This document shows positions 9,820 through 52,011 of a DNA stretch of 64,000 bases, piece after piece (position 1 is the stretch's first letter; every line of letters begins with the position of its first letter). Source of the stretch: Comamonadaceae bacterium. GTDB lineage: Bacteria; Pseudomonadota; Gammaproteobacteria; Burkholderiales; Burkholderiaceae_C. The notes below the pieces were generated by a model. It worked only from the letters and a program-made list of their open reading frames with translations. It was not told the origin of the DNA and searched no databases. A program made the position numbers and the translations under genes. The stretch covers positions 1 through 64,000 of the forward strand of contig CANFJF010000011.1 in assembly GCA_947447355.1 (NCBI GenBank), given 5' to 3'.

Positions 9820-9848
9820 AAAAGCAGCCTGAATTTCAGGCTGCTTTT
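9820..9848 (-). terminator. Intrinsic terminator after rpmE2
   Basis: Near-perfect 14-bp inverted repeat (AAAAGCAGCCTGAA / TTCAGGCTGCTTTT) with a one-base centre, followed on the minus strand by eight T residues. It lies 27 nt after the rpmE2 stop codon and ends that transcript before the ArnT-like gene. Confidence 0.92.
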
Positions 9849-30970: not shown

Positions 30971-31104
30971 GGGCGTAAAAATGTGTTTTTCATTTGGTTG
31001 ATTGACCTGAGTTCAGTTGAATGTTTGAATCCAAGGGTTGTTTTCTTCCCTGCGATTTGTGATATTTTTCTGAACTCTATTTAGATACTTAAACGTATCC
31101 AATC

Positions 31105-32085: not shown

Positions 32086-32125
32086 AGTTCTCGGTTTTCA
32101 AGCAACTAGCAAGCAGCAGAATCAC

Positions 32126-33313: not shown

Positions 33314-33315
33314 CC

Positions 33316-33882: not shown

Positions 33883-35204
33883 AAAAATTAAATGCAACGC
33901 ATGATCCACTGCGACGGTCATGGGTCGAATCCGCCAACCAGCCAGCTTGCGATTTTCCGATTCAAAATTTGCCCTTGGGGGTGTTCAGTCTCGACGGACA
34001 AAAACGCGCCGGGGTGGCCATCGGCGACAAAATTGTCGATCTGCAGCAAGTGCTGAATGCCAAGCTGCTCGATGGCGATGCCGCAACCGCTATCCGCGCG
34101 ACGGAAGGCGGTCAGTTGAAGGGCCTGATGGCGTTGGGGAATGAGGGTGCATCGGCACTGCGCTCGCAACTGTCCGACTTGTTGCGCAGTGACAGTCCTC
34201 GGCTGTTGCGCGCGCGTGAACTGGAGCACCAGATCCTGCTGCCGATCGATAGCGTGGCCATGGAACTGCCTTGCGAGATTGGTGACTACACCGATTTTTT
34301 GACTTCTCAGCACCACACTGAGCGGCATGGCCGATTCAAAGGTCTGAAAGATCCGCTGCCGCCCGCGTTCAAGTCCTTGCCCGTGGCTTACCACGGACGT
34401 GCGTCCTCACTACGCGTGAGCGGCACAGCGGTGACTCGTCCCAACGGACAGTACAAAGATGCGCAGGGTCAGCTTGTCTTTGGCCCTGCGCCCATGCTGG
34501 ACTTTGAACTCGAGCTCGCCGCCTTCGTGGCCCGCGGCAATACCTTGAGCGAACCCATCCCCATCCGCGCGGTGCAGGACTATATTTTTGGCTACTGCCT
34601 TCTCAATGATTGGTCAGCCAAAAGCATCCAGTGGTGGGAGCAGGTACTCGGTCCTTTCTTGGGTAAAAGTTTCATCTCTTCCATTTCTCCGTGGATCGTG
34701 ACGTCCGAAGCCTTGCTGCCGTTTCGCCTCCCTGCACCGCTTCGTCCGGTAGGTGACCCCGCGCCTTTGCCTTATCTGCAAGGCGATGAGGATCAGCGCG
34801 AAGGCGGTATTGACATTGAACTCGAAGCCTGGATGTCAACGTCAACGCAACGCCATGAACAGCGTCCGCCAGTGCGCATCACTCAAACACATTTGCAAAA
34901 TCTCTACTGGACTTTCGGTCAGATGTTGACCCATCACGCCAGTAATGGCTGCAATCTGCGCGCCGGTGACTTGATTGGCAGTGGCACCATTTCTGGTCCT
35001 GACGATATGACGCGAGCCTGCATCACCGAGTTGACTAATGCGGGTGCCGACCCACTTCCATTAGGGGGCAATGAATGTCGTCTTGCGCTTGAAGATGGCG
35101 ACGAAATAATTCTCAAGGCCCGCGCAACACGCGAGGGCGCTGTCTCCATCGGATTTGGCGAGTGCCGCGGTCGAATTTTTCCTGCAAAGAATTGGCCTGT
35201 CTAA
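33879..35204 (+). CDS. fahA: Fumarylacetoacetase
   Basis: Hydrolyses 4-fumarylacetoacetate to fumarate and acetoacetate, the last step of the homogentisate route. 441 residues, typical of the full-length enzyme: N-terminal SH3-like domain (LPLGVFSLDGQKRAGVAIGD), then the metal and catalytic segment DYTDFLTSQHHTERHG (about 136-151; Asp and His as in mouse FAH), LDFELELAAFV, and GSGTISGPDDMTRACITEL. The coupling to a VOC gene and a hydroxylase, rather than to hmgA, is unusual, so the real substrate may be a related dioxo acid. Confidence 0.9.
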   Translation: MKKLNATHDPLRRSWVESANQPACDFPIQNLPLGVFSLDGQKRAGVAIGDKIVDLQQVLNAKLLDGDAATAIRATEGGQLKGLMALGNEGASALRSQLSDLLRSDSPRLLRARELEHQILLPIDSVAMELPCEIGDYTDFLTSQHHTERHGRFKGLKDPLPPAFKSLPVAYHGRASSLRVSGTAVTRPNGQYKDAQGQLVFGPAPMLDFELELAAFVARGNTLSEPIPIRAVQDYIFGYCLLNDWSAKSIQWWEQVLGPFLGKSFISSISPWIVTSEALLPFRLPAPLRPVGDPAPLPYLQGDEDQREGGIDIELEAWMSTSTQRHEQRPPVRITQTHLQNLYWTFGQMLTHHASNGCNLRAGDLIGSGTISGPDDMTRACITELTNAGADPLPLGGNECRLALEDGDEIILKARATREGAVSIGFGECRGRIFPAKNWPV

Positions 35205-35307
35205 ATGGGCCTGTCAAGTTTGGCCTTTCTCGAAGCGCTGCATGGCTGACAGGCGCCGAGGGTTTCCCCTCTGCAATCCGCCTGAAATAAAAAATAACAT
35301 TTTAAAA

Positions 35308-35760
35308 ATGACCAACACTCAGACTGAACCCAAGCTTTTGATTCCTCCACTCAAACCGTTTTACGACGCGGTCGAACCGCTGTCGTGGCTGTTGATACGT
35401 CTGACGGTCGGGCTGATGCTGCTGCCGCACGGGATTCCAAAATTGTTGGACGGTGTGGCCGCCACTGCTGCTGCTGCGCTGGTGAAGCGCGGCATCGGTG
35501 CTGCTGAACCGCTCGCGGTGGTGCTCATCATCTTGGAGACGGTGGGCGGTTTGTGCATTGCGTTGGGCCTGTTCACACGCTTTTTTGCAGCGGCCATCAC
35601 CATCGAGATGTTCGTGATCGTCTACAACTACTTCCCGAAATTTGGCTGGACTGGACCCGGCTATGAATACACGCTGATGTGGGGCTTGATCATGTTCGCC
35701 GTTGCGTTGCGCGGTGGGGGTCCTTGGTCGCTGGATCGAAAAATCGGCAAGCAGTTGTAG
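35308..35760 (+). CDS. DoxX-family membrane protein
   Basis: 150-residue inner-membrane protein with four hydrophobic segments: LLIRLTVGLMLLPHGIPKLL, PLAVVLIILETVGGLCIALGLFTRF, AAITIEMFVIVYNYF, and YTLMWGLIMFAVALRGGGPWSLDR. These are the DoxX family signatures. DoxX-type proteins are often found beside quinone or aromatic oxidation genes; their role is not well defined. Start ATG 35308 chosen because the upstream frame runs through fahA. Weak A-rich ribosome site. Confidence 0.85.
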   Translation: MTNTQTEPKLLIPPLKPFYDAVEPLSWLLIRLTVGLMLLPHGIPKLLDGVAATAAAALVKRGIGAAEPLAVVLIILETVGGLCIALGLFTRFFAAAITIEMFVIVYNYFPKFGWTGPGYEYTLMWGLIMFAVALRGGGPWSLDRKIGKQL

Positions 35761-35807
35761 GTTCAATGAAGTTGAAAATGAAAGTGAAAATGAAAATAAG
35801 AGACGTC

Positions 35808-36785
35808 ATGATGCATCGTTTCAGTTGCATCCTCGCCAGCACGGTTGTCGCGCTGTTGCCAGCATTGGCCTTGGCGCAAAGCTGGAGTCCGACCAAGACG
35901 ATTACCTTTGTGGTGCCGGTGGCACCAGGCTCCAGCAATGACTTGATTGCCCGCATGCTGTCAGAGCGCTTGCCTGCCAAACTGGGCCAACCCGTGATTG
36001 TCGACAACCGGCCCGGGGCCAGCGGTCTGGTCGGTGCGGCCAGCGTGGCGCGATCGGCACCGGACGGCCACACCATCGTGATTGTCCCCAGCGACGTCTA
36101 CATGGCACCCATTCTCACGCCCAAGGCGGGCGGTGCAAACTTCGATGTCATCAAGGACTTCACGCCCATCCTCACCGCCGGCTCCGCGCCCGTGCTGATC
36201 GTGGTCAGCCCGTCTATCAACGTCAAAACACCGCAAGAGCTGGTGGCTTACCTGAAGAAAAACGGGCCGACGAGTTATGGCAGCCCTGGCACGGGTTCGC
36301 CCATGAATATCGCTGGGGAAATGTTCAAGCGCTCAACCGGAACGCAGTTGAACCATGTGCCTTACCGTGGCGTTTCGCCCGCCGTCAATGCCGTCTTGTC
36401 TGGGGAATTACCGTTGTCGATTGTTGCCCTTGCCGGTGCGGCTCCGCACATCGCCGTTGGTAAGCTGGTGCCGGTGGCGCTGGTTGAAAAACAGCGCTCT
36501 GAATTGATTCCCAACCTGCCCACGTTGACCGAGTCAGGCATTCCCGGTGTGGAGACCACGGTGTTCTTCCAAATTTTGGCGCCCGCCGGCACACCTGCGC
36601 CGGTGATTCAGCGCTTCAACACAGAGATCAATGCCATCTTGGCAACGCCTGACTTCAAGGAACGCCTGCGCACGATGGGCGTGCAGCCTGCCGGGGGCAC
36701 GTCTGCCGACGCAGCTAAGTTGGCGCGTGACACCTTTGCACGCAACCAGCAGCTGGTCAAGGAACTGCGCATCGTGGTCGAATAG
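35808..36785 (+). CDS. Bug/TctC-family periplasmic receptor
   Basis: 325 residues from ATG 35808 (a second ATG is adjacent; a further upstream ATG at 35766 gives a highly basic MKLKMKVKMKIR leader). Sec signal ending near ALALAQ. Pocket motifs VVPVAPGSSNDLIARML, VDNRPGASGLVG and ILAPAGTPAPV. It ends the fumarylacetoacetase/DoxX group on the plus strand. Ligand unknown. Confidence 0.88.
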   Translation: MMHRFSCILASTVVALLPALALAQSWSPTKTITFVVPVAPGSSNDLIARMLSERLPAKLGQPVIVDNRPGASGLVGAASVARSAPDGHTIVIVPSDVYMAPILTPKAGGANFDVIKDFTPILTAGSAPVLIVVSPSINVKTPQELVAYLKKNGPTSYGSPGTGSPMNIAGEMFKRSTGTQLNHVPYRGVSPAVNAVLSGELPLSIVALAGAAPHIAVGKLVPVALVEKQRSELIPNLPTLTESGIPGVETTVFFQILAPAGTPAPVIQRFNTEINAILATPDFKERLRTMGVQPAGGTSADAAKLARDTFARNQQLVKELRIVVE

Positions 36786-36850
36786 GTCTGAATGCCAATC
36801 TCATGCTGGAGTTTGGGCCAACATGCTGGAAGGTGACGAAAGCAGGTAGA

Positions 36851-36866
36851 CTGTGTTTTTATACAG
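36851..36866 (+). promoter_or_regulatory. LexA box (SOS operator) of umuDC
   Basis: CTGTGTTTTTATACAG matches the CTGT-N8-ACAG LexA consensus exactly. It lies 10 nt before the umuD ATG, so LexA would block transcription at the start of the operon until DNA damage. Confidence 0.92.
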
Positions 36867-36876
36867 TTTTCGAATC

Positions 36877-37341
36877 ATGCTTTCCTCCCGACTTGACCCC
36901 TCTCTTGACCAAACTCCTCAGCCTTTAGCGCCCAGCCTGCCAGCCGTCCAGCTGCGGTTGATTAGCCACCGGCTGTCGGCCGGTTTTCCTTCCCCTGCCG
37001 CCGATTACACCGAAGAAGCGCTCAACCTCAACGACTACCTGGTGCGCAACAAACCGGCCACCTTCATGTTCACGGTCAAGGGTGACTCCATGACCAACGC
37101 TGGCATCCACCACGAAGACAAGGTGGTGGTCGACCGCTCACTGACGCCGCAGTCTGGAGATATTGTGGTCGCCGTGGTGAACAGTGACTACACCATCAAG
37201 CGGTTGCGCTACCGGCAAGGCCAACCCGAACTCTGGCCAGAGAACCCGATCTACGCGCCCATCACGTTTGCAGAAGGCGCTGAGCTCGAAATCTGGGGCG
37301 TTGTGGTTGGCGTGGTGCGGCGCCTCCCTACGCGGGGCTGA
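36877..37341 (+). CDS. umuD: UmuD-like subunit of translesion polymerase V
   Basis: Self-cleaving S24-family protein that activates the UmuC polymerase after RecA-stimulated cleavage. 154 residues from ATG 36877 (a GTG at 36853 lies inside the LexA box and is not a sensible start). Predicted cleavage at A35-G36 ([10 protein letters not shown]). Catalytic Ser71 in [10 protein letters not shown] and Lys108 in [10 protein letters not shown], 37 residues apart exactly as in E. coli UmuD (S60/K97). Followed by umuC 2 nt later; SOS-controlled through the adjacent LexA box. Confidence 0.95.
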
Positions 37342-37343
37342 AC

Positions 37344-38648
37344 GTGCCAACATCTGCACTGGTGCCGCAGTTTGCGCTGGTCGACGTCAACAACTTTTAC
37401 GTTTCCTGTGAGCGCGTCTTTCAGCCCAAGCTGGAGAGCGTGCCGATGGTGGTGCTGTCCAACAACGACGGTTGCGCCGTGGCGCGCAGCGGGGAGGTCA
37501 AGGCCTTGGGCGTGAAGATGGGCACGCCGTGGTTCAAGATGAAAGACTTGGCCGCCGAGCACGGCATTCAAGCGTTCTCATCCAACTACGCGCTGTATGG
37601 CGACATGAGCAACCGGGTTGTCAGCATCTTGCGTGACTTCGCCCCCGACATCGAGGTCTACAGCATCGACGAAAGCTTCTTGCGCGTGGAGTCTGTGGTG
37701 CGGCATTACGGCGGCGGTGTCGCCATGGGTCAACTCATGCGGCAGCGCATTCGGCAATGGACAGGGCTGCCCGTTTGTGCCGGCCTAGGTCCGACCAAAA
37801 CCTTGGCCAAGCTGGCCAATCATCTGGCCAAGAAGAACCCGGAGTTCAACGGCGTGTGCGACTTGCACGCGCTGAGCAAACCAGAGCGTTTGCAGTGGAT
37901 GTCGCAAACCGACGTCGGCGAGGTCTGGGGCGTCGGTCGGCGCATTGCCCTGCGGCTTCAAGCTATGGGCGTACACACCGTGTTGGACCTGCGTCGCCAG
38001 TCGCCCAAACACATGCAGGCGCAGTTTGGCGTGGTGATGGAGCGCACCTGCAACGAATTGCGCGGTGTGTCTTGTCTAGAGCTCGAAGATGTGGCGCCAC
38101 CGAAGCAGCAAATCATGAGTTCTCGCAGCTTTGGTACGCCGGTGATCACATTGACAGAATTGCGGGAAGCGGTCGCGAGCTACGTCGCCAAGGCGGCTGA
38201 AAAACTGCGCCAGCAAGGCTCCGTAGCAGCGGCCGTGCAAGTCTTCGTGCAGACCAATCGCTTCAAGGCCAACGATCCGCAATACAACGCTGGTTGGCTG
38301 GTGCCGCTGATGGACCCGAGCAGCGACACACTGGCGCTCACGCGCGCAGCTCTCTTCGGCTTGGAGCTGATTTACAAGCCCGGCTACCAGTATAAAAAAG
38401 CTGGCGTCATGCTGACCATGCTGTCCAGCCAAGCCGCCAGACAAAAAACATTGTTTGACGACCCGCTGGCCCGTGCGCGCTCAGCCCGGTTGATGGCCGC
38501 GCTCGACACAGTCAACAGAACCTATGGGCGCAACACCCTGCGCACCGGCGTGTGCGGCACCGCAGAGCGGTGGGGGATGAAGTCCGAGAACCGATCAGGC
38601 AGTTTCACCACGCAATGGGATGAACTGCCTGAGGCTAAGGCTCAGTAA
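37344..38648 (+). CDS. umuC: UmuC, Y-family translesion DNA polymerase V
   Basis: Error-prone polymerase that copies damaged templates. 434 residues from a GTG start. Catalytic residues: first Asp in [17 protein letters not shown] and the acidic pair in [12 protein letters not shown]; HhH region [19 protein letters not shown] and [16 protein letters not shown]-terminal little-finger domain and the usual UmuC tail. Its 3' end (about 38526-38640) is repeated, decayed and frameshifted, at 46206-46320. Coupled to umuD. Confidence 0.95.
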
Positions 38649-38703
38649 CGGGTGATGTCCGAAGCCTGCAGTCCCTGCCAAGGGGTACTGCCAGGGGCCG
38701 TGA

Positions 38704-39981
38704 TCAAACCGCCGCTAACGCCTGCTCCAGGTCTTCTAACAAGTCGTCGATGTGCTCAATGCCGATAGACAGCCGCACCATGTCGGGTTTGACGCCGGCT
38801 TTGGCCAACTCGTCCGCGTTGAGCTGACGGTGTGTGGTGGAGGCGGGGTGGCAGGCCAGCGACTTGGCATCTCCAATATTGACCAAACGTGTGAAGAGCT
38901 TGAGCGCGTCTTGAAAGCGGGCGCCAGCCTCCAAACTGTCGCTGGCTTTCAAGCCGAAGCTGATGATGCCTGAGGCACGTCCTGTCATGAGTTTTTGCAC
39001 CAGCTGATGATCGGGATGATCGGGTAAACCAGCGTAATTGACCCAACTCACTTTCGCATGAGATTGGAGGTGTTTGGCGACTTTGAGCGCGTTCTCGCAA
39101 ATGCGGTCCATGCGCAGTGCCAGCGTTTCGATGCCTTGCAAAATCTGGAACGCTGCCATCGGGCTGAGCGCTGCGCCCATGTTGCGCAGGGGCACCACGC
39201 GCGCGCGGCCAATGTAGGCGGCGGCTCCGAGCGCCTCGGTGTAGACCACGCCGTGGTAGCTGACATCAGGCTCGTTGAGCCGCTTGAAGCGCTCCTTGTG
39301 TTCTGCCCAAGGGAACTTCCCTGAATCGACAATTGCGCCGCCGATAGTCGTGCCATGTCCGCCCAAGTATTTGGTGAGCGAATGCACCACGATGTCTGCG
39401 CCATGCTCAATGGGGCGGCACAGGTACGGACTGGCCACGGTGTTGTCCACAATCAGCGGCACACCGTGGGCGTGGGCTACTTTGGCCAGTGCGGTCAGGT
39501 CGGTGATATTGCCCAGCGGGTTGCCAATGCTTTCACAGTAAACGGCTTTGGTGCGCGCATCGATCAGCTTGGCAAAGGCGGCCGGGTCGCGGTAGTCGGC
39601 AAAGCGCACCTCGACGCCCATTTGTGGGAAGGTGTGGGCAAACAGGTTGTAGGTGCCGCCGTACAAGGTGGCGGTCGAGACAATGTTGTCGCCCGCTTCG
39701 GCAATGGTTTGTATGGCATAGGCAATGGCCGACATGCCAGAGGCCACCACCAGCGCGCCTATACCGCCTTCTAACGCCGCCACGCGCGCCTCTAGGACGC
39801 CGTTGGTCGGGTTCATGATGCGGCTGTAAATATTGCCCGCAACTTTGAGGTCGAACAAGTCAGCCCCGTGCTGAGTGTTGTCAAACGCGTAAGCCACCGT
39901 TTGGTAGATGGGAACGGCCACCGCTTTGGTGGTCGGGTCTGGTGTGTAGCCCGCGTGAACGGCAAGGGTTTCAATGCGCAT
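38704..39981 (-). CDS. metY: O-acetylhomoserine sulfhydrylase / aminocarboxypropyltransferase
   Basis: PLP enzyme of methionine biosynthesis that makes homocysteine from O-acetylhomoserine and sulfide. 425 residues from ATG 39981, which has AGGAAG upstream; the longer frame (start 40032) has no such signal. PLP-binding Lys204 in VVHSLTKYLGGHG; PLP contacts in VASGMSAIAY and LYGGTYNLF; long-form length typical of MetY. No SAM or other riboswitch was recognised in the short upstream region. Convergent with umuC. Confidence 0.92.
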   Translation of the reverse strand: MRIETLAVHAGYTPDPTTKAVAVPIYQTVAYAFDNTQHGADLFDLKVAGNIYSRIMNPTNGVLEARVAALEGGIGALVVASGMSAIAYAIQTIAEAGDNIVSTATLYGGTYNLFAHTFPQMGVEVRFADYRDPAAFAKLIDARTKAVYCESIGNPLGNITDLTALAKVAHAHGVPLIVDNTVASPYLCRPIEHGADIVVHSLTKYLGGHGTTIGGAIVDSGKFPWAEHKERFKRLNEPDVSYHGVVYTEALGAAAYIGRARVVPLRNMGAALSPMAAFQILQGIETLALRMDRICENALKVAKHLQSHAKVSWVNYAGLPDHPDHQLVQKLMTGRASGIISFGLKASDSLEAGARFQDALKLFTRLVNIGDAKSLACHPASTTHRQLNADELAKAGVKPDMVRLSIGIEHIDDLLEDLEQALAAV

Positions 39982-40072
39982 GATTTTGCTTCCTAGGTTA
40001 AAAATCCAACGGCTGGACTCGCAGTATGGCATTCCTGATGCATTCAGCGCGTTGTTGAACCCCCGTCTTTAG

Positions 40073-40273
40073 AGCGCCCGTACCTCATACCTTGTAAGAC
40101 GCCAACACCTGTTTCGGGAAAAGCTCTTCCACGTCCAGATGCCGGTAGCAGACCCCTTGTTCACCCGAGTTCGACAGGTGGACGGGCCGACATGACGGCG
40201 TCCAACTCGCCGTTGAGCAGCATGGCGTTCAGGCTGTCGTCGCTGACGTTGGTGATGGGGGTGCCATCAAATT
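40073..40273 (-). pseudogene. Decayed, internally deleted copy of the dihydroxyphthalate decarboxylase-like gene
   Basis: 40089-40163 aligns with 46346-46420 (3 mismatches in 75 positions) and preserves the reading of the last residues (QVLASYKV) with a stop. After a 13-nt junction, 40177-40269 aligns with 46781-46873 (about 90 percent identical by hand count). The intervening 360 bp of the intact gene are missing. It starts beside metY and ends at the border of the AT-rich island, so it marks that border. No product is possible. Confidence 0.88.
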
Positions 40274-40282
40274 ACGCTCGAA

Positions 40283-41638
40283 CTAAAGAATCACCACCTC
40301 TTTTAAGATTTGATCAATGGGTTGATTCAAGTTCATATGCCATATCAGCGACAAAATGCGGTCGGCTTGTTCTGGTTTGTAATGATGATGCGTTAGTGAT
40401 TTGAATTTATTGTCAACATCACACACTTGCAATGGATGAAGAAAATGTCCATGTGGCATATCGACTTGCACTTCGAATTTTTTTCCTTGGTGCGTGGTGA
40501 TCGTCATGATGCACGGCATGCGATCTGGAAATTGTTGGGTTAAACCGTCACTCACATCAATACTTATTTTTTCAGCCAATGCATGGAGATCTGCATCAAC
40601 CAATCGATGCGATTCAAATATTTGTTCACTGAACACGCCATCGGTCAATACGCCTGCCACAATCCATGGCATGCTGTGATCTGCAGTTTCGCGATTGCTT
40701 GGATGCCATTTTTCTTTTTCACTGGCGACCTCATTCCACGCAAACCAATAGGTCTGAATATGCACATGGGAAATTTCATCGACACGGCATTGCTGATGCA
40801 GTTGCATGGCCGCCAATATCGGTGTTTGCGAGTGGTAATCACACAAATAACTTTTCATGTGAGACAAAGATAAAGCATAGGTATCCGTCGGCTGCGATGG
40901 CAATAAAGGCCATGTAAATTTTTTAGTGATTTCGAATAAACCTCTCACGCCCTCAAACGGTTGTGCAGGTGCATCAAAATCCAATTGAGCCAGCATCGCA
41001 GCAAAAACACCATTGCGCGCCGCATTACCCGACGCACCGGACTTCCACATTGACAAGGTACCCGTTCGGGCCACACCCATGGGCAAATGTCCTGTTAAAG
41101 CAATAGAAACTGCATTGGCTGTCTGCTGTTCATTGAGTTTGAGCAAATGACAAACACCTACTGTTGTCCCCACCGTGGCATACAAAACATTGTCCAAACC
41201 ATGCTCACGAAAATTGCCCGATTGAAACAGATGATAAAAAATTTCATAAGCCAACGTAACGGCCGTGATTGTCTCTTGAAGTGTTGAATTTTTAAATTGG
41301 GCGACGGCTAATATTCCTGCCCAGCAATCACTGCCGTGCCCACCACCGCCTGGATAAGTGTCTGCACCATCAAGGTAACGAATCATGACGCCGTTAGCAA
41401 ATGCGACCATCTCTAAGCTGGAGAAATGCGGCGTTCCGATTAACTGAGCCTGTGGCAATGCGGCATGTTGCATTGCCATATGGCGTGCGATCGTGCATGG
41501 TTTTTTGTCATAGCCCGCAACTGCACAAGCAATGACATCGACCAGTCTTTTTCTGCAATCCCTCACCGCATCCGAAGACAAATTCGAGAAAGAAAAGTGT
41601 GCTGCGTAATGAGCAATTTGTCGAAGCGTTTGATCCAT
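40283..41638 (-). CDS. MmgE/PrpD-family protein
   Basis: All-helical MmgE/PrpD family (2-methylcitrate dehydratase, cis-aconitate decarboxylase and relatives), acting on tri- or dicarboxylic acids. About 451 residues from ATG 41638. Family signature RLVDVIACAVAGYDK near the start, then the region YLDGADTYPGGGGHGSDCWA, equivalent to the PrpD D-N/T-x-P-G-x-H-P motif, and MWKSGASGNAARNGVFAAMLA. Clearly richer in A/T than flanking chromosomal genes. Divergently transcribed from the other island genes, with a shared promoter gap of about 125 nt. The reaction is uncertain: the family also contains proteins of unknown role. Confidence 0.85.
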   Translation of the reverse strand: MDQTLRQIAHYAAHFSFSNLSSDAVRDCRKRLVDVIACAVAGYDKKPCTIARHMAMQHAALPQAQLIGTPHFSSLEMVAFANGVMIRYLDGADTYPGGGGHGSDCWAGILAVAQFKNSTLQETITAVTLAYEIFYHLFQSGNFREHGLDNVLYATVGTTVGVCHLLKLNEQQTANAVSIALTGHLPMGVARTGTLSMWKSGASGNAARNGVFAAMLAQLDFDAPAQPFEGVRGLFEITKKFTWPLLPSQPTDTYALSLSHMKSYLCDYHSQTPILAAMQLHQQCRVDEISHVHIQTYWFAWNEVASEKEKWHPSNRETADHSMPWIVAGVLTDGVFSEQIFESHRLVDADLHALAEKISIDVSDGLTQQFPDRMPCIMTITTHQGKKFEVQVDMPHGHFLHPLQVCDVDNKFKSLTHHHYKPEQADRILSLIWHMNLNQPIDQILKEVVIL

Positions 41639-41763
41639 AGCTTCCAGTTTACGAACTTGCATCAGCCTTTCGCACATGACACTTGTAGGTGTTAACCCCC
41701 TGACGATAAAAATTAAACGAGCTAAAGTTCCAGCAGTTTTTTTACGAAATAAAGGTGAGAAAA

Positions 41764-42732
41764 ATGATAAAAGTTCGAGGTTTAAATAAAGTATTCATTT
41801 TAATTTCTTGCTTATTCGTCAATCTTTCACAAGCTCAGGACTACCCAACCAAACCCATCACATTGATTGTTCCCTTTGCTCCCGGTGGCGGATCTGATTT
41901 GGTCAGTCGTGTAGTAGCGAATGAATTATCCAAAGGACTCGGACAACGAGTTGTGATTGAAAACAAACCGGGCGCAGGCGGCAATATTGGTTTTGCTGCA
42001 GGTTCACGTGCTGCGCCCGATGGCTACACACTCACCACAGTCACACAAAACATCACCGTCAATCCGCATGTTCTCAAAGAAATGCCTTTTGATCCGCTCA
42101 AAGATTTGCAACCCATTTCATTGATGGTGCAGTACTACTCCATGTTGGTGGTGAGCCCAAGCTTGCCCGTGCAAAACATGGCTGAATTGGTAGCTTATGG
42201 AAAAGCCAACCCTGGTGTACTCACTGGTGGACATGGAGGCGTGGGAGGTCAAGCACACTTATCTATGGTATTGATTGCCAGTGCCGCAGGTTTTAAGATG
42301 GAATACATTCCATACAAAGGTGAAGCACCCGTATTGCCCGACTTAATGGCGGGTCGAACCTCTATGACGGTTCAATCATTTGGCGGCTTAGGACAGCACG
42401 TGGATTCTGGTCGTTTGCGTGCCATTGGCGTGACATCCCCCAAGCGTGTGGCTCAATTTCCAAAGGTGTCCACCATCGGAGAGACTCTGCCCGGTTTTCA
42501 ACTCGCAGGTTGGTATGGCATTGCTGTACCGGCAAGTACGCCAGCGCCTATTGTCAAAAAACTCAATGATCAAATGAAAATTGCATTGAATGCACCCGAA
42601 GTCAAAAAAGTACTCACAGAAATGGGTTTGGTTGTCTCGTACAACACGCCCGAAGAGTTCAGCATACTCATTAAAGAGGATTACAGACGTATCCAAAAAG
42701 TAGTGGCCGAAGCAGGAATTAAACCCCAATGA
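41764..42732 (+). CDS. Bug/TctC-family periplasmic receptor (island)
   Basis: 322 residues from ATG 41764, preceded by AAAGGTGAG (a GTG at 41755 is inside that ribosome site). Signal peptide ending SQAQ; pocket motifs VPFAPGGGSDLVSRV, ENKPGAGGN and ASTPAPIVKKLNDQM. First gene of the plus-strand island operon. Its stop overlaps the AroQ-like start (ATGA). Codon use is AT-rich in contrast to the Bug genes outside the island. Confidence 0.9.
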   Translation: MIKVRGLNKVFILISCLFVNLSQAQDYPTKPITLIVPFAPGGGSDLVSRVVANELSKGLGQRVVIENKPGAGGNIGFAAGSRAAPDGYTLTTVTQNITVNPHVLKEMPFDPLKDLQPISLMVQYYSMLVVSPSLPVQNMAELVAYGKANPGVLTGGHGGVGGQAHLSMVLIASAAGFKMEYIPYKGEAPVLPDLMAGRTSMTVQSFGGLGQHVDSGRLRAIGVTSPKRVAQFPKVSTIGETLPGFQLAGWYGIAVPASTPAPIVKKLNDQMKIALNAPEVKKVLTEMGLVVSYNTPEEFSILIKEDYRRIQKVVAEAGIKPQ

Positions 42733-43208
42733 GCTTTGATTCAAGCAAACTGACTCGAACCGTTTTTGTTTTAAACGGTTCCAACCTTAATTTATTGGGC
42801 ACGCGCGAACCCGATTTGTATGGAACGCAAACGTTATCCGACGTACAAAAGTTGTGTGAAAAAACCTGCCAAGCCAAAGATCTTGTTTTAGATTTCAGAC
42901 AAAGCAATCACGAAGGCGTTCTGATTGATTGGGTGCACGAAGCGCATCATGCCAATGCGTCGGTCGTCATCAATGCTGGGGCATACGCTCGTACCTCTCT
43001 TGCACTGCACGATGCGGTCATAGCGGTGACAATTCCTGTCATTGAAATTCACATCACCAATATTTACAAACGCGATTCATTCAGACCCCCCTCCTATCTC
43101 AGTCGTGCGGCACAAGGTGTTATTTGTGGCCTTGGTATTCAAGTATACAAATACGGTATTGAAGCCGTTGCCGATTTAATTGACGTCCCATCGATTTTAA
43201 AAATATGA
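42729..43208 (+). CDS. AroQ-like type II 3-dehydroquinate dehydratase homologue in a catabolic context
   Basis: 159-residue dodecameric-type dehydroquinase homologue. LNGSNLNLLGTREPDLYG keeps the catalytic Arg and Tyr of the lid; RQSNHEGVLIDWVHEA and IEIHITNIYKRDSFRPPSY keep the catalytic His and Arg. The usual NPGAYTHTS loop is altered to NAGAYARTS, and Pro in LNGPN is Ser. Fully embedded in the island operon with ATGA overlaps on both sides, so it is not the housekeeping shikimate gene. It may act on 3-dehydroquinate derived from quinate or on a related cyclic hydroxy acid; this is inference. Confidence 0.82.
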   Translation: MSFDSSKLTRTVFVLNGSNLNLLGTREPDLYGTQTLSDVQKLCEKTCQAKDLVLDFRQSNHEGVLIDWVHEAHHANASVVINAGAYARTSLALHDAVIAVTIPVIEIHITNIYKRDSFRPPSYLSRAAQGVICGLGIQVYKYGIEAVADLIDVPSILKI

Positions 43209-44710
43209 ATTATTCTGAAAAAAATCCCCCAGCCGATTTTGATGTGGTGGTGGTGGGTGCGGGTGGATCAGGTTTGGCATCGGCTTTAGAGGCTGCTCAA
43301 AACGGTTTGCGAGTGTTGATCGTCGAAAAAGCACCGCAACCCGGTGGTGCAACCGCATGGTCAGTCGGCGCGTTCACAACCAGTTCGTCGCCGCATCAAA
43401 AAAAAGCGGGGGTTGTAGATAGTCGCGATCAACACTTTATTGATATGGATTTGGTCAACGCTAATGCAAAAAGGGCAGACAACATGCAGTTGCGTCGATT
43501 GCTGGTTGATAAAGCCCCCGAAACATTGCAATGGTTGATGGATCTGGGTGTCGAATTCATGGGTCCTCATGCCGAGTCGCCACATACACAACCACGAATG
43601 CACAATGCCGTTCCAGGCGGTGTGGCCTTGGTTTATTACCTCGTTAAACATTGCAAAAAAGCAGGCGTTCAAATCGCATGCAATACAAAATTACAAGATC
43701 TTTTATTTAAGGATGGAAAGGTTTGTGGCGTACAGGTTTTAAATAACGAAAAAATTCAAAACTTTTATGCAAAGCGAGCTGTTATTTTAGCAAGCGGCGA
43801 CTTCAGCGGCAGTCGGTCTATGCGCGAACGCTTCTTCGACCCTGCTGTTGTCAATGCAGCGCCTGTTGTTTCTATCAACACAGGTGACGGTCTCTTGGTT
43901 GCCGAAAAATATGGTGCACAAATTATCAATGGCGACTATGCGGCTTTTTATATTCCACGCATGCGTTTTGTACCGCAAGAAAATGTAGGATGGATTGCAC
44001 GTTTGCCACCGACTAAAACGATTGCTCAATTGATGCAGTGGGCAATGAAGTATTTACCGCCTGCCATCATTCGTCCTTTCATGATGAAAATGGTCACCAC
44101 CGTATTAGGACCTGAACCCGCTCTTTTCAAAGCAGGCGCGGCATTGATCAATGTTGCAGGCGGCTTGATTGACGTTGACTTCAAAAGTCCAGCGCGCAAG
44201 TTGGCCTTAGACCACCACAACAAAGGCTATATTGTTTTTGATCAAAAATTAGCCCAACAATTTCAAACGTGGCCTCATTTTATTTCGACGGCCCCTGGCA
44301 TTGCTTATGCTTATCTCAAAGATTACGAGCACTCAAGACCTGATATTTTTCATCGCGCCGACACGATTAATCAACTGGCGCAAACCATTCAGATCGATTG
44401 CACACAACTCCATAATGCATTGCAACAACACAATCAAAAAAATCCTGCATGCGGACCTATCGAACAAGGCCCTTTTTATGCGCTGGGTCCTGTGCGTGGA
44501 TACATCACCATCACCGAAGGCGGTTTGGATGTGAATGAACAGTTGCAAGTGATCGGCAAAAATCAACAACCAATTCCTCATTTGTACGCCTGCGGATCAG
44601 CAGGTCAAGGTGGTGTGTTACTCGATGGCCACGGTCATCATCTGTCTTGGGCTTTTGTATCGGGGCGTCATGCGGCCCAACAAGTTCTTCAAGAAACATC
44701 GATCTATTAA
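43205..44710 (+). CDS. FAD-dependent dehydrogenase (fumarate reductase/KstD-like flavoprotein)
   Basis: 501 residues. N-terminal FAD motif DVVVVGAGGSGLASALEAAQNGLRVLIVEKA and the C-terminal FAD clamp LYACGSAGQGGVLLDGHGHHLSWAFVSGR show the fumarate reductase/succinate dehydrogenase flavoprotein superfamily that includes 3-ketosteroid-delta-1-dehydrogenase. The substrate domain (about 130-350) diverges from known enzymes. No signal peptide. Coupled by overlap to the AroQ-like gene, so probably a dehydrogenase for a cyclic or polycarboxylic intermediate. AT-rich. Confidence 0.85.
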   Translation: MNYSEKNPPADFDVVVVGAGGSGLASALEAAQNGLRVLIVEKAPQPGGATAWSVGAFTTSSSPHQKKAGVVDSRDQHFIDMDLVNANAKRADNMQLRRLLVDKAPETLQWLMDLGVEFMGPHAESPHTQPRMHNAVPGGVALVYYLVKHCKKAGVQIACNTKLQDLLFKDGKVCGVQVLNNEKIQNFYAKRAVILASGDFSGSRSMRERFFDPAVVNAAPVVSINTGDGLLVAEKYGAQIINGDYAAFYIPRMRFVPQENVGWIARLPPTKTIAQLMQWAMKYLPPAIIRPFMMKMVTTVLGPEPALFKAGAALINVAGGLIDVDFKSPARKLALDHHNKGYIVFDQKLAQQFQTWPHFISTAPGIAYAYLKDYEHSRPDIFHRADTINQLAQTIQIDCTQLHNALQQHNQKNPACGPIEQGPFYALGPVRGYITITEGGLDVNEQLQVIGKNQQPIPHLYACGSAGQGGVLLDGHGHHLSWAFVSGRHAAQQVLQETSIY

Positions 44711-44713
44711 TCC

Positions 44714-46261
44714 ATGAAGACTTCAACCGACGTCATTGTTGTAGGTGCTGGCAATGCTGCATTGTCTGCGGCCATCGCCGCGCAAGAACAGGGCGCACAA
44801 GTCACTGTGCTTGAGCGAGCGCCCGAGTCTGAGAGTGGTGGAAATTCACGCTATGCCGCAGGAGCCTTTCGATTTCTCTACAACGATGCTCAAGACATTA
44901 TTGATCTGGTTCCCGATTTAACGTCAGATGAAATTCAAAAAACAGATTTCGGATCTTATTCAGCACAACGCTATTTTGATGATTTATACCAAGTCACTCG
45001 TTATCGTACCGACCCCGATTTATGCGAAGTCTTGGTGAGTCAATCTCACGACACGATGAAATGGCTCCGTAGCAAAGGTGTGCGATTCACTCCAATTTGG
45101 GGGCGAAGCGCCATTAAACGCGATGGGCGATTTATTTTTACGGGTGAACTCACCTTGGACGCTTGGGGCGGGGGCGAAGGTTTAATTGCGGCAGAAAAAA
45201 AAGCGGCACTCAAAAGTGGTGTCAACATCCTATATGAAACAGGTGCGATTGATTTACTCCATGATGGCAATCGAATCACCGGCGTTCGTGTTCAAGGATC
45301 GCAAGGCACACAAGAAATCCACGCAAAATCTGTGGTGTTGGCTTGCGGGGGCTTCGAGGCCAATACCGAATGGCGCACCCGGTACCTAGGACCTGGATGG
45401 GAGTTGGCTAAAGTTCGGGGTTCTCGTTTTAACAATGGCGACGGCATTCGAATGGCCTTAGATTTGGGCGCCATGCCAACAGGACATTGGTCCTGGTGTC
45501 ATTCGGTTTGTTGGGACAACCATGCGCCGCCCTCAGGTGATTTGAGCGTGGGTGATGCGTTTCAAAAATTCAGCTACCCATACAGCGTCATGATTAATTC
45601 AACGGGTCGACGTTTTGTGGATGAAGGCATGGATATGCGCATCAAGACCTACAGCAAAATGGGCCGCATTGTTTTATCGCAACCCGATCAATTTGCTTGG
45701 CAGATTTTCGACTCTAAAGTGGTGCCCTTGCTGCGTGACGAATACCGAATCAAGCGAGTCACCAAAGTCACCGCAGCCACATTAGAAGAGTTGGCAAGTA
45801 AACTCGATGGTGTAGATGCTCAATCCTTTTTGGATGAAATCAAATTGTTTAATGCCGCGGTTGATACAGCAACGCCCTTTGACCCTCAAGTGAAAGATGG
45901 ACGAGGCACAAAAGGCTTGAGCGTACCCAAATCCAATTGGGCACAGACCATCGATCAAGGACCCTTCGAGGCCTATCAAGTGGGATGTGGCATCACATTC
46001 ACTTTTGGCGGATTGGCGATTTCTCCGTCTACCAGTCAAGTTTTAGACACAGCAAAAAAACCAATTGAAGGCCTTTACGCCGCGGGTGAAATGGTGGGTG
46101 GCTTGTTTTATTTTGGATATCCGGGCGGGTCGGGTTTGATGGCTGGCTCTGTATTCGGAAGAAACGCGGGTCTGCATGCGGCCCAATCAGCCATTACCAA
46201 ACCTAGTGGCGTAACACCCTTCGCACGGGCGTCTGCTGCACCGCAGAGCACTGGGGAATGA
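44714..46261 (+). CDS. TcuA-like FAD-dependent dehydrogenase with a chimeric C-terminal tail
   Basis: 515 residues, most like tricarballylate dehydrogenase TcuA: NAALSAAIAAQEQGAQVTVLERAP with SGGNSRYAAGAFRF at the N-terminus, VVLACGGFEANTEWRTRYLGP in the middle, and GLYAAGEMVGGLFYFGYPGGSGLMAG with FGRNAGLHAA at the C-terminus. The last about 17 codons (GVTPFARASAAPQSTGE) are not native: the DNA aligns with the umuC 3' end in another frame, so the original stop was lost and the gene now ends in a umuC remnant. Probably still active because the FAD clamp is complete. Last gene of the island operon. Confidence 0.85.
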   Translation: MKTSTDVIVVGAGNAALSAAIAAQEQGAQVTVLERAPESESGGNSRYAAGAFRFLYNDAQDIIDLVPDLTSDEIQKTDFGSYSAQRYFDDLYQVTRYRTDPDLCEVLVSQSHDTMKWLRSKGVRFTPIWGRSAIKRDGRFIFTGELTLDAWGGGEGLIAAEKKAALKSGVNILYETGAIDLLHDGNRITGVRVQGSQGTQEIHAKSVVLACGGFEANTEWRTRYLGPGWELAKVRGSRFNNGDGIRMALDLGAMPTGHWSWCHSVCWDNHAPPSGDLSVGDAFQKFSYPYSVMINSTGRRFVDEGMDMRIKTYSKMGRIVLSQPDQFAWQIFDSKVVPLLRDEYRIKRVTKVTAATLEELASKLDGVDAQSFLDEIKLFNAAVDTATPFDPQVKDGRGTKGLSVPKSNWAQTIDQGPFEAYQVGCGITFTFGGLAISPSTSQVLDTAKKPIEGLYAAGEMVGGLFYFGYPGGSGLMAGSVFGRNAGLHAAQSAITKPSGVTPFARASAAPQSTGE

Positions 46262-46320
46262 ATCTGAAACCGATCAGGCAGCTTCACCACGCGCTGGAAT
46301 GAGGTGCGTGAAGTCAAGTG
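46206..46320 (+). pseudogene. Duplicated, frameshifted umuC 3'-end remnant
   Basis: Aligns with 38526-38640 of intact umuC: both contain CACCGCAGAGC and ACCGATCAGGCAG, about 80 percent identical by hand, with a 2-nt gap after the shared ATGA. The copy cannot be read as UmuC. Its first part has been captured as the tail of the TcuA-like gene. It lies 20 nt before the end of the intact decarboxylase-like gene (46342), an arrangement that suggests umuC was originally next to that gene. Confidence 0.85.
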
Positions 46321-46341
46321 ATGAATGCGCCTAACCTGAGT

Positions 46342-47340
46342 TCACACCTTGTAAGACGCCAACACCTGTTTCGGGAAAAGCTCTTCCACATCCAGATGCC
46401 GGTAGCACACGCCTTGTTCAAAGCCGAATTTGAGGAACGCGGCCAGTGTGGCGTGGTTGATCCGGCCGCCTTGCTCAGGGCCAATTCCGTAAGGGTAAAA
46501 GTCGTCGCCGAAGATGCCGCGCAGTCGACTGGTGGTGTCGGTGATCCAAGCCATCGGGGCGTGTGACGCAGTGACGTCTGAAAGACGTTCCATCGAGCGA
46601 TTTTTGGCGTCTAAAAAAGCTTTGTACAGGTTCATGCCAACCCAAGGGTGGGCGTCAAGCACCGGTGTTCTGAGCACCAGCGAATGCATGATGGGGAAGA
46701 TTTGGGTGTCTTTGAAATACCGCTGCTCGGCCGCTTGCGCATCAGGCATCAAGCGCACGATGCCTTGGCCAATGCCAGCCGGTGGGCGTGCCGACATGAC
46801 GGCGTCTAACTCGCCGTTGAGCAGCATGGTGTTCAGACTGTTGTCGCTGACGTTGGTGATGTGGATGCCATCAGGTAACTTGAGTTTGACCTTTTCTTTG
46901 CGCCCCGGCTGGTTGACACCGGCCTGAATCCACTGAATGTCTTTGAGCTTGAGCCCCACGTAATCGCTCAGGTAGCCGCGCCCGTAGATGCCTGCGGTTT
47001 GCGCCCACTCGGGGATGCCGATGCGTTTGCCCTGCAAGTCTTCCGGCCGTTTGATGGCACTGCCTTCGCGCACATAAAACATCGAGTGCCGAAAGGCGCG
47101 CGAGATGAACACGGGCAGCGCGGAGATGCTGGTGTCGTCTTGTGATCGCAGGGCAATGTACTTGCCCATCGACATCTCGGAAATGTCCCACTCGCGGTAC
47201 AGGGTGAAGCGGTAAAAGATTTCTTCAATCGGCAGGTCCAGCGTGCGCAGTTGGATACCTTCAGCGTGCACCGTGCCGTCGGTCACGTCACGGGTGTGGT
47301 CGTAGAGGCCAAGGGCCAGAGTGAGTGGTAGCGGGTTCAT
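46342..47340 (-). CDS. 4,5-dihydroxyphthalate decarboxylase-like protein (PBP2 fold)
   Basis: 332 residues without a signal peptide, starting MNPLPLTLALGLYDHTRDV. Family features: DLPIEEIFYRFTLYREWDISEMSMGKY, LPVFISRAFRHSMFYV and KRPEDLQGKRIGIPEWAQTAGIYGRGYLSDY, all typical of the Pht5/OhpD type, which has a periplasmic-binding-protein fold but acts in the cytoplasm. Known members decarboxylate 4,5-dihydroxyphthalate to protocatechuate. Its start ATG abuts the Bug stop (4-nt spacing), so it is in one operon with it. A decayed copy lies at 40073-40273. Confidence 0.8.
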   Translation of the reverse strand: MNPLPLTLALGLYDHTRDVTDGTVHAEGIQLRTLDLPIEEIFYRFTLYREWDISEMSMGKYIALRSQDDTSISALPVFISRAFRHSMFYVREGSAIKRPEDLQGKRIGIPEWAQTAGIYGRGYLSDYVGLKLKDIQWIQAGVNQPGRKEKVKLKLPDGIHITNVSDNSLNTMLLNGELDAVMSARPPAGIGQGIVRLMPDAQAAEQRYFKDTQIFPIMHSLVLRTPVLDAHPWVGMNLYKAFLDAKNRSMERLSDVTASHAPMAWITDTTSRLRGIFGDDFYPYGIGPEQGGRINHATLAAFLKFGFEQGVCYRHLDVEELFPKQVLASYKV

Positions 47341-48336
47341 TCAGTAGGCCTCGATGTGTGCTGTTTTGATGACGCGAGCCCATTTGTCGGACTCGACTTT
47401 TACAAATTGAGCCAGCTCTTCGGGGGTGCTGTAGACGGCCTCTTGTCCCTGCTTGCTCAGTTGTTCTTTGTGCTCGGCATTTTTACCCAAACCCACCATT
47501 TCACGGTTCAAGCGCGAAATGATAGCGGCTGGCGTGCCCGCCGGCGCGAACAAGCCATACCAAGAACTGGCTTGTGCGCCGGGGTAGCCGAGCTCTGCCA
47601 GCGTGGGCGTGTCGGGCAAAGCGTCAATGCGTTTGGGTGACGTCACAGCCAGCGGGCGCAAGCGGTTGACGCGGATGAACGACAGGCTAGAAACCACACC
47701 GCCAAACATCATTTCCGTTTCACCCGCCACGACCGCTGCGGCGGCAGGCGCACTGCCTCGATATGGGATGTGCGTGATGTCCACCCCCGACGCCATTTTG
47801 AACAATTCTGCGGCCAAATGCAGTGGTGATCCATTGCCGCCCGATGCAAAGTTGATGCTGCCTGGTTTCGCCTTGGCCATGGCCACCAGTTCGGGCAGCG
47901 TTTTGGCGGGGAATGCCGGGTTGACCACGAGGATTTGATAACCCTGAGCCACCATGCTGATGGGCGCAAAGTCTTTGAACGGATCGTAATTGACCTTACC
48001 TAAGTGCGGTGTGATGGCGAAGTTAGGTGCAAAACCCAGCGTCAGCGTGTAGCCATCGGGTTTGGAGCGGGCGACCAGTTCTGTGCCCAAGTTGCCACCC
48101 GCGCCGGCCTTGTTGTCGACAAAAACCTGCTGACCTAGAGCCACGGACAAACGCTGAGCAATCAGCCGGCCAAGTGCGTCATTGCCACCGCCGGGCGGGA
48201 AGGGCACGACGAGACGAATGGGCTTGTTTGGAAAATCTTGTGCGACGGCCCGCGGGACGTGCAGCGCAAAGGCGAAGACGGTAGCCGCTGCAAGGGACAC
48301 CCACAGACGCAGAGAAATGAGGGACATACGGGTCAT
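47341..48336 (-). CDS. Bug/TctC-family periplasmic receptor
   Basis: 331 residues with a Sec signal ending at VAQD; a second Met at codon 4 could be the start. Pocket motifs VVPFPPGGGNDALGRL, DNKAGAGGNLG and LFAPAGTPAAIISRL. First gene of a two-gene operon with the decarboxylase-like gene; it could bind the phthalate-type substrate. Divergent from nothing close; a 179-nt gap follows to the small helical gene. Confidence 0.9.
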   Translation of the reverse strand: MTRMSLISLRLWVSLAAATVFAFALHVPRAVAQDFPNKPIRLVVPFPPGGGNDALGRLIAQRLSVALGQQVFVDNKAGAGGNLGTELVARSKPDGYTLTLGFAPNFAITPHLGKVNYDPFKDFAPISMVAQGYQILVVNPAFPAKTLPELVAMAKAKPGSINFASGGNGSPLHLAAELFKMASGVDITHIPYRGSAPAAAAVVAGETEMMFGGVVSSLSFIRVNRLRPLAVTSPKRIDALPDTPTLAELGYPGAQASSWYGLFAPAGTPAAIISRLNREMVGLGKNAEHKEQLSKQGQEAVYSTPEELAQFVKVESDKWARVIKTAHIEAY

Positions 48337-48515
48337 TTAGTTTCCATTACAACAACCATTAACTTTGCAATAAGCATAAACGGTAATGGGGTAGGACAGG
48401 TCACGGCATTGCCAGCATTGACGTTTTTAGACGCGACTCAATGGCCAGGCGTTGGGAGTCAAGCAAAGACGTCAATGAACTTAAAGTGCGAGTGTGTCCC
48501 GCACGTTGCAATGTT

Positions 48516-48773
48516 TCAGCCTTGCTTCAATGCGTCTTCAAACTCAGCCAACTCTTGCGCGATGGCCGCGTATTTTTTGGACTTGGCTTTGTTCTCTGCC
48601 CACTGGAGGGTGGCTTCTTCCAAGTCTTCTTTGTAATTGGCGAGTGCTGCTTCTTTGATCTTCTCGGTGACCTTTTTGTCCGCGCTGGACCACAGGTCGA
48701 TCAGGTCTGACAGACCGTTGTCGAAATCGTCGAACGTTTCAAGGTAGATCCGTTTGCCGCTTTTATCTGACAT
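48516..48773 (-). CDS. Small acidic helical protein, unknown function
   Basis: 85 residues from ATG 48773 (an ATG six codons upstream is also in frame). No signal peptide. Highly charged with a long amphipathic helical region (SDLIDLWSSADKKVTEKI and WAENKAKSKKYAAIAQELAEF). I do not recognise the family. Preceded by a promoter-sized gap shared with the divergent old-yellow-enzyme gene. The coding pattern (regular heptad-like hydrophobics) supports a real gene. Confidence 0.65.
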   Translation of the reverse strand: MSDKSGKRIYLETFDDFDNGLSDLIDLWSSADKKVTEKIKEAALANYKEDLEEATLQWAENKAKSKKYAAIAQELAEFEDALKQG

Positions 48774-48959
48774 ATTTTCTTCTTTGTGCATGAGAGTTTG
48801 AGTGAAACTGAACTAGCCACGGGTTGATAGACAGCCCGGGTCTATGATGAGATATGCCACCACTGGCTATATTTCACACGGAGAATTAGAGCGTACTTTT
48901 GATCGATGCGGTTTTCTGCTCATGGCCTAAGTCGTTCGATTCAGTCATTTACTTTGGCA

Positions 48960-51000: not shown

Positions 51001-52011
51001 ATGAAGTCGAGCCGTTCCGCCTCTCTCTGTTTTTGGCTTCGAGGTAGCCTCTTGAGTATGTTGATGACGGCGGTGTTGTTGCCTTTGAGCGCACAAGCTC
51101 AGACGGCGAAGACTGATTGGCCGACGCGACCCGTCACCTGGGTCAACCCGTTTGCCGCGGGGTCTGCCGTGGACGTGGTGGCGCGAATCATTTCGCAGAA
51201 GGTCGCCGCCAACACAGGCCAGGGTATGAACGTGGACAACAAGACCGGCGCCAGTGGGAACATTGGCACCGACTTTGCCGCTCGTGCACGACCCGACGGC
51301 TACACACTGCTGCTGGGGTCACCCGGCACCATGGCGATCAACCCTTTTCTTTTTTCGAAATTACCCTATGACGCCATCAAGGATTTCACGTCTGTCACGC
51401 AGTTGGTGTCCTTCCCGCAAGTGGTGGTCGCCAGCCCTAAGCAGAGCTTCAAGACGATTCCAGAATTGATCGCCGCCGCCAAGGCGCAACCAGGTCAATT
51501 GGCCCATGCATCCTCTGGCCCAGGAAGCACCTCCCATTTGGTGATGGAGTTGATCAAAGCTGACGCGGGCATTCGACTGATTCACGTGGGTTACCGCGGT
51601 GGTGCGCCAGCGATGCAGGCGGTGATCGGCGGTGATGTGCAAACGGGTGTTGAGGGACTGCCTTCGTTGGTGGGATTGATCAAATCGGGGAGCATCGTGC
51701 CGTTGGCGGTGACCTCACTCAAGCGTTCGGCACAATTGCCTCAAGTGCCTGCGATGTCGGAGTTCATTCCAGGTTTTGATGCAACGGCTTGGATTGTGCT
51801 GATGGCACCTGCGGGAACGCCTGCACCGATCGTCAGCCGCATTGCAGCCGAAGTGAAGAAGGCTCTCGACGACCCGGGTGTTCGTCAGCAGTTGGAAGCC
51901 CAGGGTGCCATTGTGGTGGGCTCTACGCCTGCCGAAACAGCTGCTTTTCACTTCAGCGAAATGGCGAAATTCAAGCGCGCGGTTGAGATTTCTGGCGCTA
52001 AAGCGGATTGA
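51001..52011 (+). CDS. Bug/TctC-family periplasmic receptor
   Basis: 336 residues from ATG 51001 (AAAAGGATTCATC upstream). Signal peptide ending SAQAQT. Pocket motifs VNPFAAGSAVDVVARI, DNKTGASGN and LMAPAGTPAPIVSRI. Some pocket residues differ from the usual VPFPPGG loop, which may mean a different ligand. It follows the old-yellow-enzyme gene by about 50 nt and is convergent with the FAD dehydrogenase gene. Confidence 0.9.
   Translation: MKSSRSASLCFWLRGSLLSMLMTAVLLPLSAQAQTAKTDWPTRPVTWVNPFAAGSAVDVVARIISQKVAANTGQGMNVDNKTGASGNIGTDFAARARPDGYTLLLGSPGTMAINPFLFSKLPYDAIKDFTSVTQLVSFPQVVVASPKQSFKTIPELIAAAKAQPGQLAHASSGPGSTSHLVMELIKADAGIRLIHVGYRGGAPAMQAVIGGDVQTGVEGLPSLVGLIKSGSIVPLAVTSLKRSAQLPQVPAMSEFIPGFDATAWIVLMAPAGTPAPIVSRIAAEVKKALDDPGVRQQLEAQGAIVVGSTPAETAAFHFSEMAKFKRAVEISGAKAD

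Follow-up and report, generated by a model that had tools for sequence, protein, structure and literature searches.

In Escherichia coli, when linearised plasmid DNA homologous at one end was introduced by conjugation, a PCR duplication product was obtained in 56/60 Lac- clones, and 14 sequenced duplications, each of part of the anchor, measured 109–950 bp; the authors attribute them to molecules that had re-closed after partial degradation and then crossed over once, rather than to homology-facilitated illegitimate recombination (HFIR), which deletes target DNA (PMC3240628). HFIR has been invoked for displaced old genes in type VI secretion system (T6SS) loci of Vibrio and, in a citation of that second paper, in Rhs loci (PMC5361080). 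We have analysed a stretch of 64,000 nucleotides (positions 1 to 64,000 of contig CANFJF010000011.1 from the Comamonadaceae bacterium assembly GCA_947447355.1; hereafter the window) in which an AT-rich cassette of five metabolic genes lies between copies of umuC and of dhp, a gene encoding a decarboxylase-like protein. The best reading of this locus, and one that we consider rather probable, is single-anchor (Campbell-like) integration of DNA from a relative followed by decay; the label Campbell-like is used because the E. coli duplications are ascribed to single crossover, and HFIR is kept as a rival. The process is a known one, of which this locus is a readable example.

In the window the cassette separates two alleles of a single locus: to the left umuC is followed by metY and a relic of dhp, and to the right a displaced umuC tail is followed by an intact dhp. 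A preliminary description of this DNA, made from the sequence alone, had proposed that a unit of umuC tail plus decarboxylase end is present once on each side of the island. The duplication stood, but the two units proved to differ: metY lies within the left unit and is absent from the right one, and the two units are therefore different alleles. This difference, together with the parental junctions found in relatives, is what is added here to the earlier account. The features concerned are as follows.

36853..38648, plus strand: umuD-umuC, intact (NCBIfam UmuC NF002955, 456 bits, cut-off 431; umuD-type NF007621, 151 bits)
38704..40032, minus strand: metY, O-acetylhomoserine sulfhydrylase (TIGR01326, 648 bits, cut-off 495)
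40085..40275, minus strand: left dhp relic, the gene's 3' 532 bp less a net ~347 bp lost from within (blastn to 40269, similarity by eye to ~40275)
40283..41677, minus strand: cassette gene 1 (prpD), MmgE/PrpD family protein (PF03972, PF19305; C-terminus as in the homologues of genomes G022 and G007)
41755..42732, plus strand: cassette gene 2, TctC-type solute receptor (PF03401)
42729..43208, plus strand: cassette gene 3, type II 3-dehydroquinate dehydratase, AroQ (NF003806, PF01220)
43205..44710, plus strand: cassette gene 4 (FAD1), flavin adenine dinucleotide (FAD)-dependent dehydrogenase (PF00890)
44714..46261, plus strand: cassette gene 5 (FAD2), TcuA-like FAD dehydrogenase (NF006130, 561 bits, cut-off 369)
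46200..46311, plus strand: displaced 3' tail of umuC, 2 bases deleted, beside its dhp neighbour (blastn and alignment to relatives)
46342..47340, minus strand: dhp, intact, 4,5-dihydroxyphthalate decarboxylase-like (PDB 9jp7_A, E 2.7e-67)
47341..48336, minus strand: tctC2, TctC-type receptor paired with dhp (PF03401)

Comparison of the window with itself by blastn (E ≤ 1e-3) showed that three pairs of direct repeats bracket the 5.9 kb cassette. Two of them lie in the 3' half of dhp: 40085–40163 matches 46342–46420 (79 bp, 94.9%), a pair that the preliminary description had placed at 40089–40163 and 46346–46420, and 40177–40269 matches 46781–46873 (93 bp, 91.4%), at precisely the positions given there. 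The third joins the two umuC tails, 38519–38623 and 46200–46302 (83.8%, 2 gap bases); this repeat too had been noticed, but its start had been put 6 bases late and its end beyond the computed limit of 38623 (self-comparison) or 38632 (genus search). The frameshift ascribed to the umuC copy is real, the displaced tail being short by 2 bases and its umuC-like reading switching frame, and all three identities held in nucleotide alignment. The pairs scored 128, 124 and 99 bits, against 38 bits for the top plus-strand match in a chance control (20 windows, 500-bp block shuffling). The remaining off-diagonal matches were a weak inverted one between tctC2 (48035–48120) and 51232–51317 and a 29-bp hairpin at 9820–9848, preceded by an A-run and followed by a T-run, which is probably an ordinary terminator.

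The edges of the cassette coincide with those of the repeats, since only 7–13 bp, according to where the limit of similarity is set, separate the end of the dhp relic from the prpD stop codon, and the umuC repeat starts where the FAD2 homologues of G022 and G007 end when C-termini are compared. Those homologues stop at about codon 495, and over its last ~20 codons FAD2 reads the displaced umuC tail in a frame other than that of umuC. The insert is flanked by direct anchor repeats that abut it, as in single-crossover (Campbell-like) integration.

Both parental junctions were found in relatives (genomes, contigs and compared loci bear G, C and L numbers). FAD2 and the DNA of 38500–40283 were each sought in 87 genus genomes, and dhp in 149 genomes, of which 55 matched at E ≤ 0.001, the genome of the window being included in each set; many genus assemblies are fragmented, and neighbours could stay hidden in them. 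In G079, umuDC meets dhp-tctC2 directly, without metY or the cassette, so that window segments 30107–38632 (91.1%) and 46208–48387 (93.0%) meet at one point, the second of these being collinear through displaced tail, spacer and dhp-tctC2. This junction, seen in one genome, is the empty target without insert that belongs to a Campbell-like event, and with it the island-free form of the umuC/decarboxylase junction, proposed earlier as the point of entry, was found. The other form is present in G066 in two halves. On its contig C18, dhp is followed by a metY within which the contig ends, and the window's dhp relic, spacer and metY (39359–40163) align with this metY-dhp junction gaplessly at 91.2% over 805 bp; on C14, umuC is followed by a different metY, 85.3% identical to the first over 621 bases. 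The umuC-metY order is found also in G059:C89, and the nearest DNA to the window's metY is that of G059 (93.1%), with half the gene in G066:C18 at 91.3%. At its 3' end (the last ~150 bp) the intact umuC is of G066 type, as is the spacer that leads to metY: in 150-bp bins, the last bin of umuC is 89% identical to G066 and 82% to G079, and the next, which includes the spacer, is closest to G066 at 90%. It is from the umuC-dhp junction of G079 and the metY-dhp and umuC-metY junctions of G066 that the two-allele structure of the window follows. Relatives with the order umuC-metY-island and no repeats, which the preliminary description had named as fatal to its proposal, did not appear among the 86 other genus genomes searched; among the FAD2 matches listed, those of at least 50% identity came from six genomes and lay in each on a contig other than that of the umuC-tail or metY match, where present. 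The two diverged metY copies of G066 (L108 on C14, beside umuC; L121 on C18, beside dhp) possibly record a similar insertion between alleles, hidden by contig ends.

The cassette is foreign-looking both in its GC content at third codon positions (GC3) and in its proteins, which are 42–73% identical to their G007 and G022 counterparts as against 93% for rpoB between G007 and the genome of the window (G000). The rpoB identity of G000 to G066 or G059 is 99%. The earlier statement that the island is richer in A/T than its surroundings is borne out by the GC profile and by codon usage: GC is 0.467 over the cassette (40283 to 46199), and in 1-kb steps it is 0.45–0.50 in 40.5–46 kb, compared with 0.59–0.61 over 36–39.5 kb and 0.57–0.58 over 46.5–48.5 kb; at 48–49 kb it falls to 0.52. 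GC3 is 0.41–0.46 in the five cassette genes and 0.60–0.76 in eight surrounding genes (0.66–0.76 in umuDC, metY, dhp and tctC2). Among six genomes with cassette-like loci that were examined (G078, at 50%, was left out), only G022 and G007 carry all five genes in order, the full order being absent from G027, G059, G031 and G047; the five-gene set was present in 3/82 loci compared, two of the three (L116, L153) being apparently one contig, G007:C110, and this contig alone had all five genes among the best 80 of 582 in a scan of genome contigs. The G022 and G007 versions are GC-rich (0.62–0.63), and therefore neither pinpoints the donor of the AT-rich cassette, which was not found in searches of genus, order, family and plasmid sequences. 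With FAD1, a sample of 399 order genomes (E ≤ 1e-100) gave 16 matches including its own, the best other at 49%, and a sample of 399 family genomes (1e-110) gave seven including its own, the best other at 48%; neither sample lists G007 or G022. Six plasmid records matched, all below 60%.

Taken together, the presence of both junction types in relatives, the repeat ends abutting the cassette, its foreign composition and the read-through of FAD2 into the displaced tail are best explained by the following series of steps. A fragment from a relative, of the umuC-metY-dhp form with the five-gene cassette attached, would have entered, by a route of DNA entry that we can only infer, a cell whose chromosome had the umuC-dhp locus, which is also the direction we favour. 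Pairing, presumably of the RecA type, would have used the short stretch, running from the end of umuC into dhp, that both molecules share. A single homologous crossover within it, in the simplest case of a re-closed circle with a partly degraded anchor, would have placed two alleles of the locus in direct order on either side of the cassette, after which the redundant copies of dhp (left) and umuC (right) would have decayed. The appeal of a single event is that a molecule with the order umuC tail-metY-dhp-cassette, crossing once with a umuC-dhp chromosome, gives the order of the window in one step.

At the level of single bases the alleles offer some agreement with such a crossover. The intact umuC ends like that of G066 (EAKAQ and EAHAK, then stop), and the displaced tail has EVK in common with G079 only, as read off the alignment. 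At its differing sites the displaced tail is G066-like in 8/10 up to 38591 and G079-like in 6/7 from 38615 on, a switch that a crossover inside the tail predicts. The intact dhp is nearer to G079 (930/999) than to G066 (911/999). Several observations weigh against the Campbell-like reading. At most of the G066-like sites the base is the one found in the majority, and G079 is the exception; in the aligned rows only 38635 is common to the relic tail and G079 alone, and only 38518 to the relic tail and G066 alone; and identity of the relic tail, taken over 112 bp, is 85.7% to G079 and 87.5% to G066. In the dhp relic eight sites side with G066, eight with G079 and one with neither, and the relic is slightly closer to the intact dhp of its own genome (160/172) than to either relative (157/172 each). 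In its tail the intact umuC shifts towards G066, but not significantly so (51:51 versus 21:9; p = 0.06, and 0.19 when the last bin is omitted), and a umuDC tree had no supported branch. Furthermore, umuC-metY-dhp stands on no single contig, the G066 halves lying on two contigs around different metY copies, and the structure in the window is known from one fragmented assembly of 179 contigs. For polarity from a species tree, rpoB had no match in G079 (8/16 genomes matched). The gene order fits one donor-type and one recipient-type copy of the anchor. The informative bases are few and mixed, weak evidence that decides neither the direction of transfer nor between single crossover and HFIR.

The strongest rival, although we think it unlikely, is a tandem duplication of the umuC tail and the 3' half of dhp (~0.7 kb) within one lineage, the cassette being caught at the duplication junction and metY later gained on the left or lost on the right. 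The abutment of both repeat ends on the cassette is what a duplication junction would give, and the slightly greater likeness of the dhp relic to the intact dhp beside it points the same way. Such a history needs an additional gain or loss of metY even though both junction types already exist in relatives, and the two umuC tails are less alike (83.8%) than are the two dhp copies (94.9% and 91.4%). Since tandem duplication alone yields the same allele twice and the units differ, the joining of two alleles is favoured. Of the two routes offered by the preliminary description, recombination with DNA of a relative is accordingly the likeliest, and simple tandem duplication is disfavoured by the difference between the alleles; in most respects its interpretation was sound.

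Improbable, in our judgement, is strict HFIR of a linear piece with one homologous end and a microhomology joint, of 3–10 bp, at the other. It draws on the same ingredients, and FAD2 breaks off at its native end and is joined there to mid-umuC. As a rule HFIR deletes a comparable length of recipient DNA (PMC3240628), whereas here the target is duplicated, nothing between the umuC and dhp of G079 is missing, and recipient DNA was not deleted at the illegitimate end; under HFIR, moreover, the displaced tail should be recipient-like along its whole length, and the pattern of sites in it does not favour this.

A very improbable alternative is the remnant of a site-specific element directed at umuC-family genes, like the integron-like elements in rulB, whose integrase has since been lost. 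Both rulB and rumB are described as insertion hotspots (PMC4542609), and the gene after umuC varies in relatives: besides dhp and metY, it is a flavin reductase in G041 and a DNA/RNA endonuclease in G054, and also in G052 provided that its two contigs, which share an exact 149-bp overlap, are neighbours. That overlap of contig ends is why a second umuC tail in G052 was rejected as an extra copy. However, the cassette contains no recombinase and umuC is intact. The rulB element lies inside its gene, carries xerD and left a 3-bp target repeat (PMC4542609), as against repeats of ~105 and ~532 bp here. Eight proteins encoded close to the end of umuC or metY in relatives included no recombinase; three of the eight had no Pfam match. 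Profile scans found neither integrase nor transposase among ten proteins at and around the island, and there is no tRNA gene in the window, as the earlier remark that none of these is needed would have it; with five metabolic genes only and no recombinase or tRNA, the locus does not qualify as an integrative element or classical genomic island, and a site-specific element or transposon was rejected. Just as improbable is an assembly chimera of two strains: the assembly, a single one of 179 contigs, is 93.8% complete and 1.35% contaminated, but the copies differ by 5–16% and carry 2-base and ~347-base net deletions, FAD2 joins mid-umuC, and a mis-join at identical k-mers would presumably look otherwise.

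From family names, the cassette probably imports (TctC) and oxidizes a tricarboxylate-like or hydroaromatic acid. FAD2 exceeds one cut-off for tricarballylate dehydrogenase TcuA (NF006130, 560.7 versus 369) and falls short of another (TIGR02485, 250.9 versus 372.55), and FAD1 does not reach the cut-off in any of the 25 NCBIfam families shown (of 61). The TcuA-like protein bears a C-terminal extension of ~20 residues of out-of-frame umuC sequence. The conserved start of metY sits 17 codons inside its open reading frame. Although dhp had no Pfam or NCBIfam match above cut-off, its predicted product resembles a solved member of its family over full length (9jp7_A residues 21–348), and dhp and tctC2 are adjacent in 10/13 relative loci examined (L034–L043). 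Beyond tctC2, 48515–48773 on the minus strand holds a small gene of 85 residues with a DUF7939 match under cut-off; it is single-copy in its own genome and occurs on the umuC, metY or dhp contig of G079, G059, G027, G054 and G066 with differing intervening genes. Matches to 48515–48788 in 15/87 genus genomes (own included; three over <40 bp only) had suggested a dispersed repeat or RNA, which was rejected as the sequence is single-copy in its own genome and reads as this gene; no Rfam gathering score was reached there in a scan of the whole window.

In G009, metY adjoins a 34-codon umuC tail (L110:558–660), upstream of which the contig has no umuC; here a umuC 3' end has for the second time been displaced or orphaned. 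Two other genus members carry orphan dhp 3' ends that lack the remainder of the gene, each next to unrelated genes: L045:9015–9176 in G060, beside a GntR/aminotransferase protein and a protein without Pfam match, and L046:9309–9603 in G014, beside a VWA protein and a trehalase. It is conceivable, though we would not count on it, that the umuC 3' end is a recurrent, recombinase-free capture site in this genus, the 3' ends of umuC and dhp anchoring single-crossover uptake of neighbours' DNA, perhaps with damage-linked repair. Candidate footprints of such capture are the umuC tails in the window's own genome and G009 and the dhp tails in the former, G060 and G014. We found no paper that joins umuDC, a genomic island and insertion in Comamonadaceae. 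To our knowledge, genes acquired without the enzymes of mobile elements rarely leave a readable scar; with both parental junctions in sequenced relatives and a scar that keeps parts of both, the route of recombination can here be tested with further genomes.

Of the described systems, the rulB integron-like elements share with this locus a umuC-family gene as insertion neighbourhood and differ in that here no tyrosine recombinase was found, there is no 3-bp repeat and umuC is uninterrupted (PMC4542609). HFIR has in common with it one homologous and one illegitimate end and the capture of foreign genes beside a chromosomal anchor, yet target DNA is here duplicated instead of being deleted, as is usual (PMC3240628). 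In the Vibrio T6SS and Rhs loci an old 3' part likewise survives as an orphan 3' of the insert; here the genes are umuC and dhp and not effector modules, and the new 3' end of umuC has nearly the same sequence as the old (PMC5361080). The single crossover with a degraded anchor gives, as here, foreign DNA flanked by direct copies of part of the anchor gene and needs no site-specific recombinase, whereas the present case is natural, involves diverged alleles and subsequent decay, and would have passed through a circle that in this instance we infer (PMC3240628).

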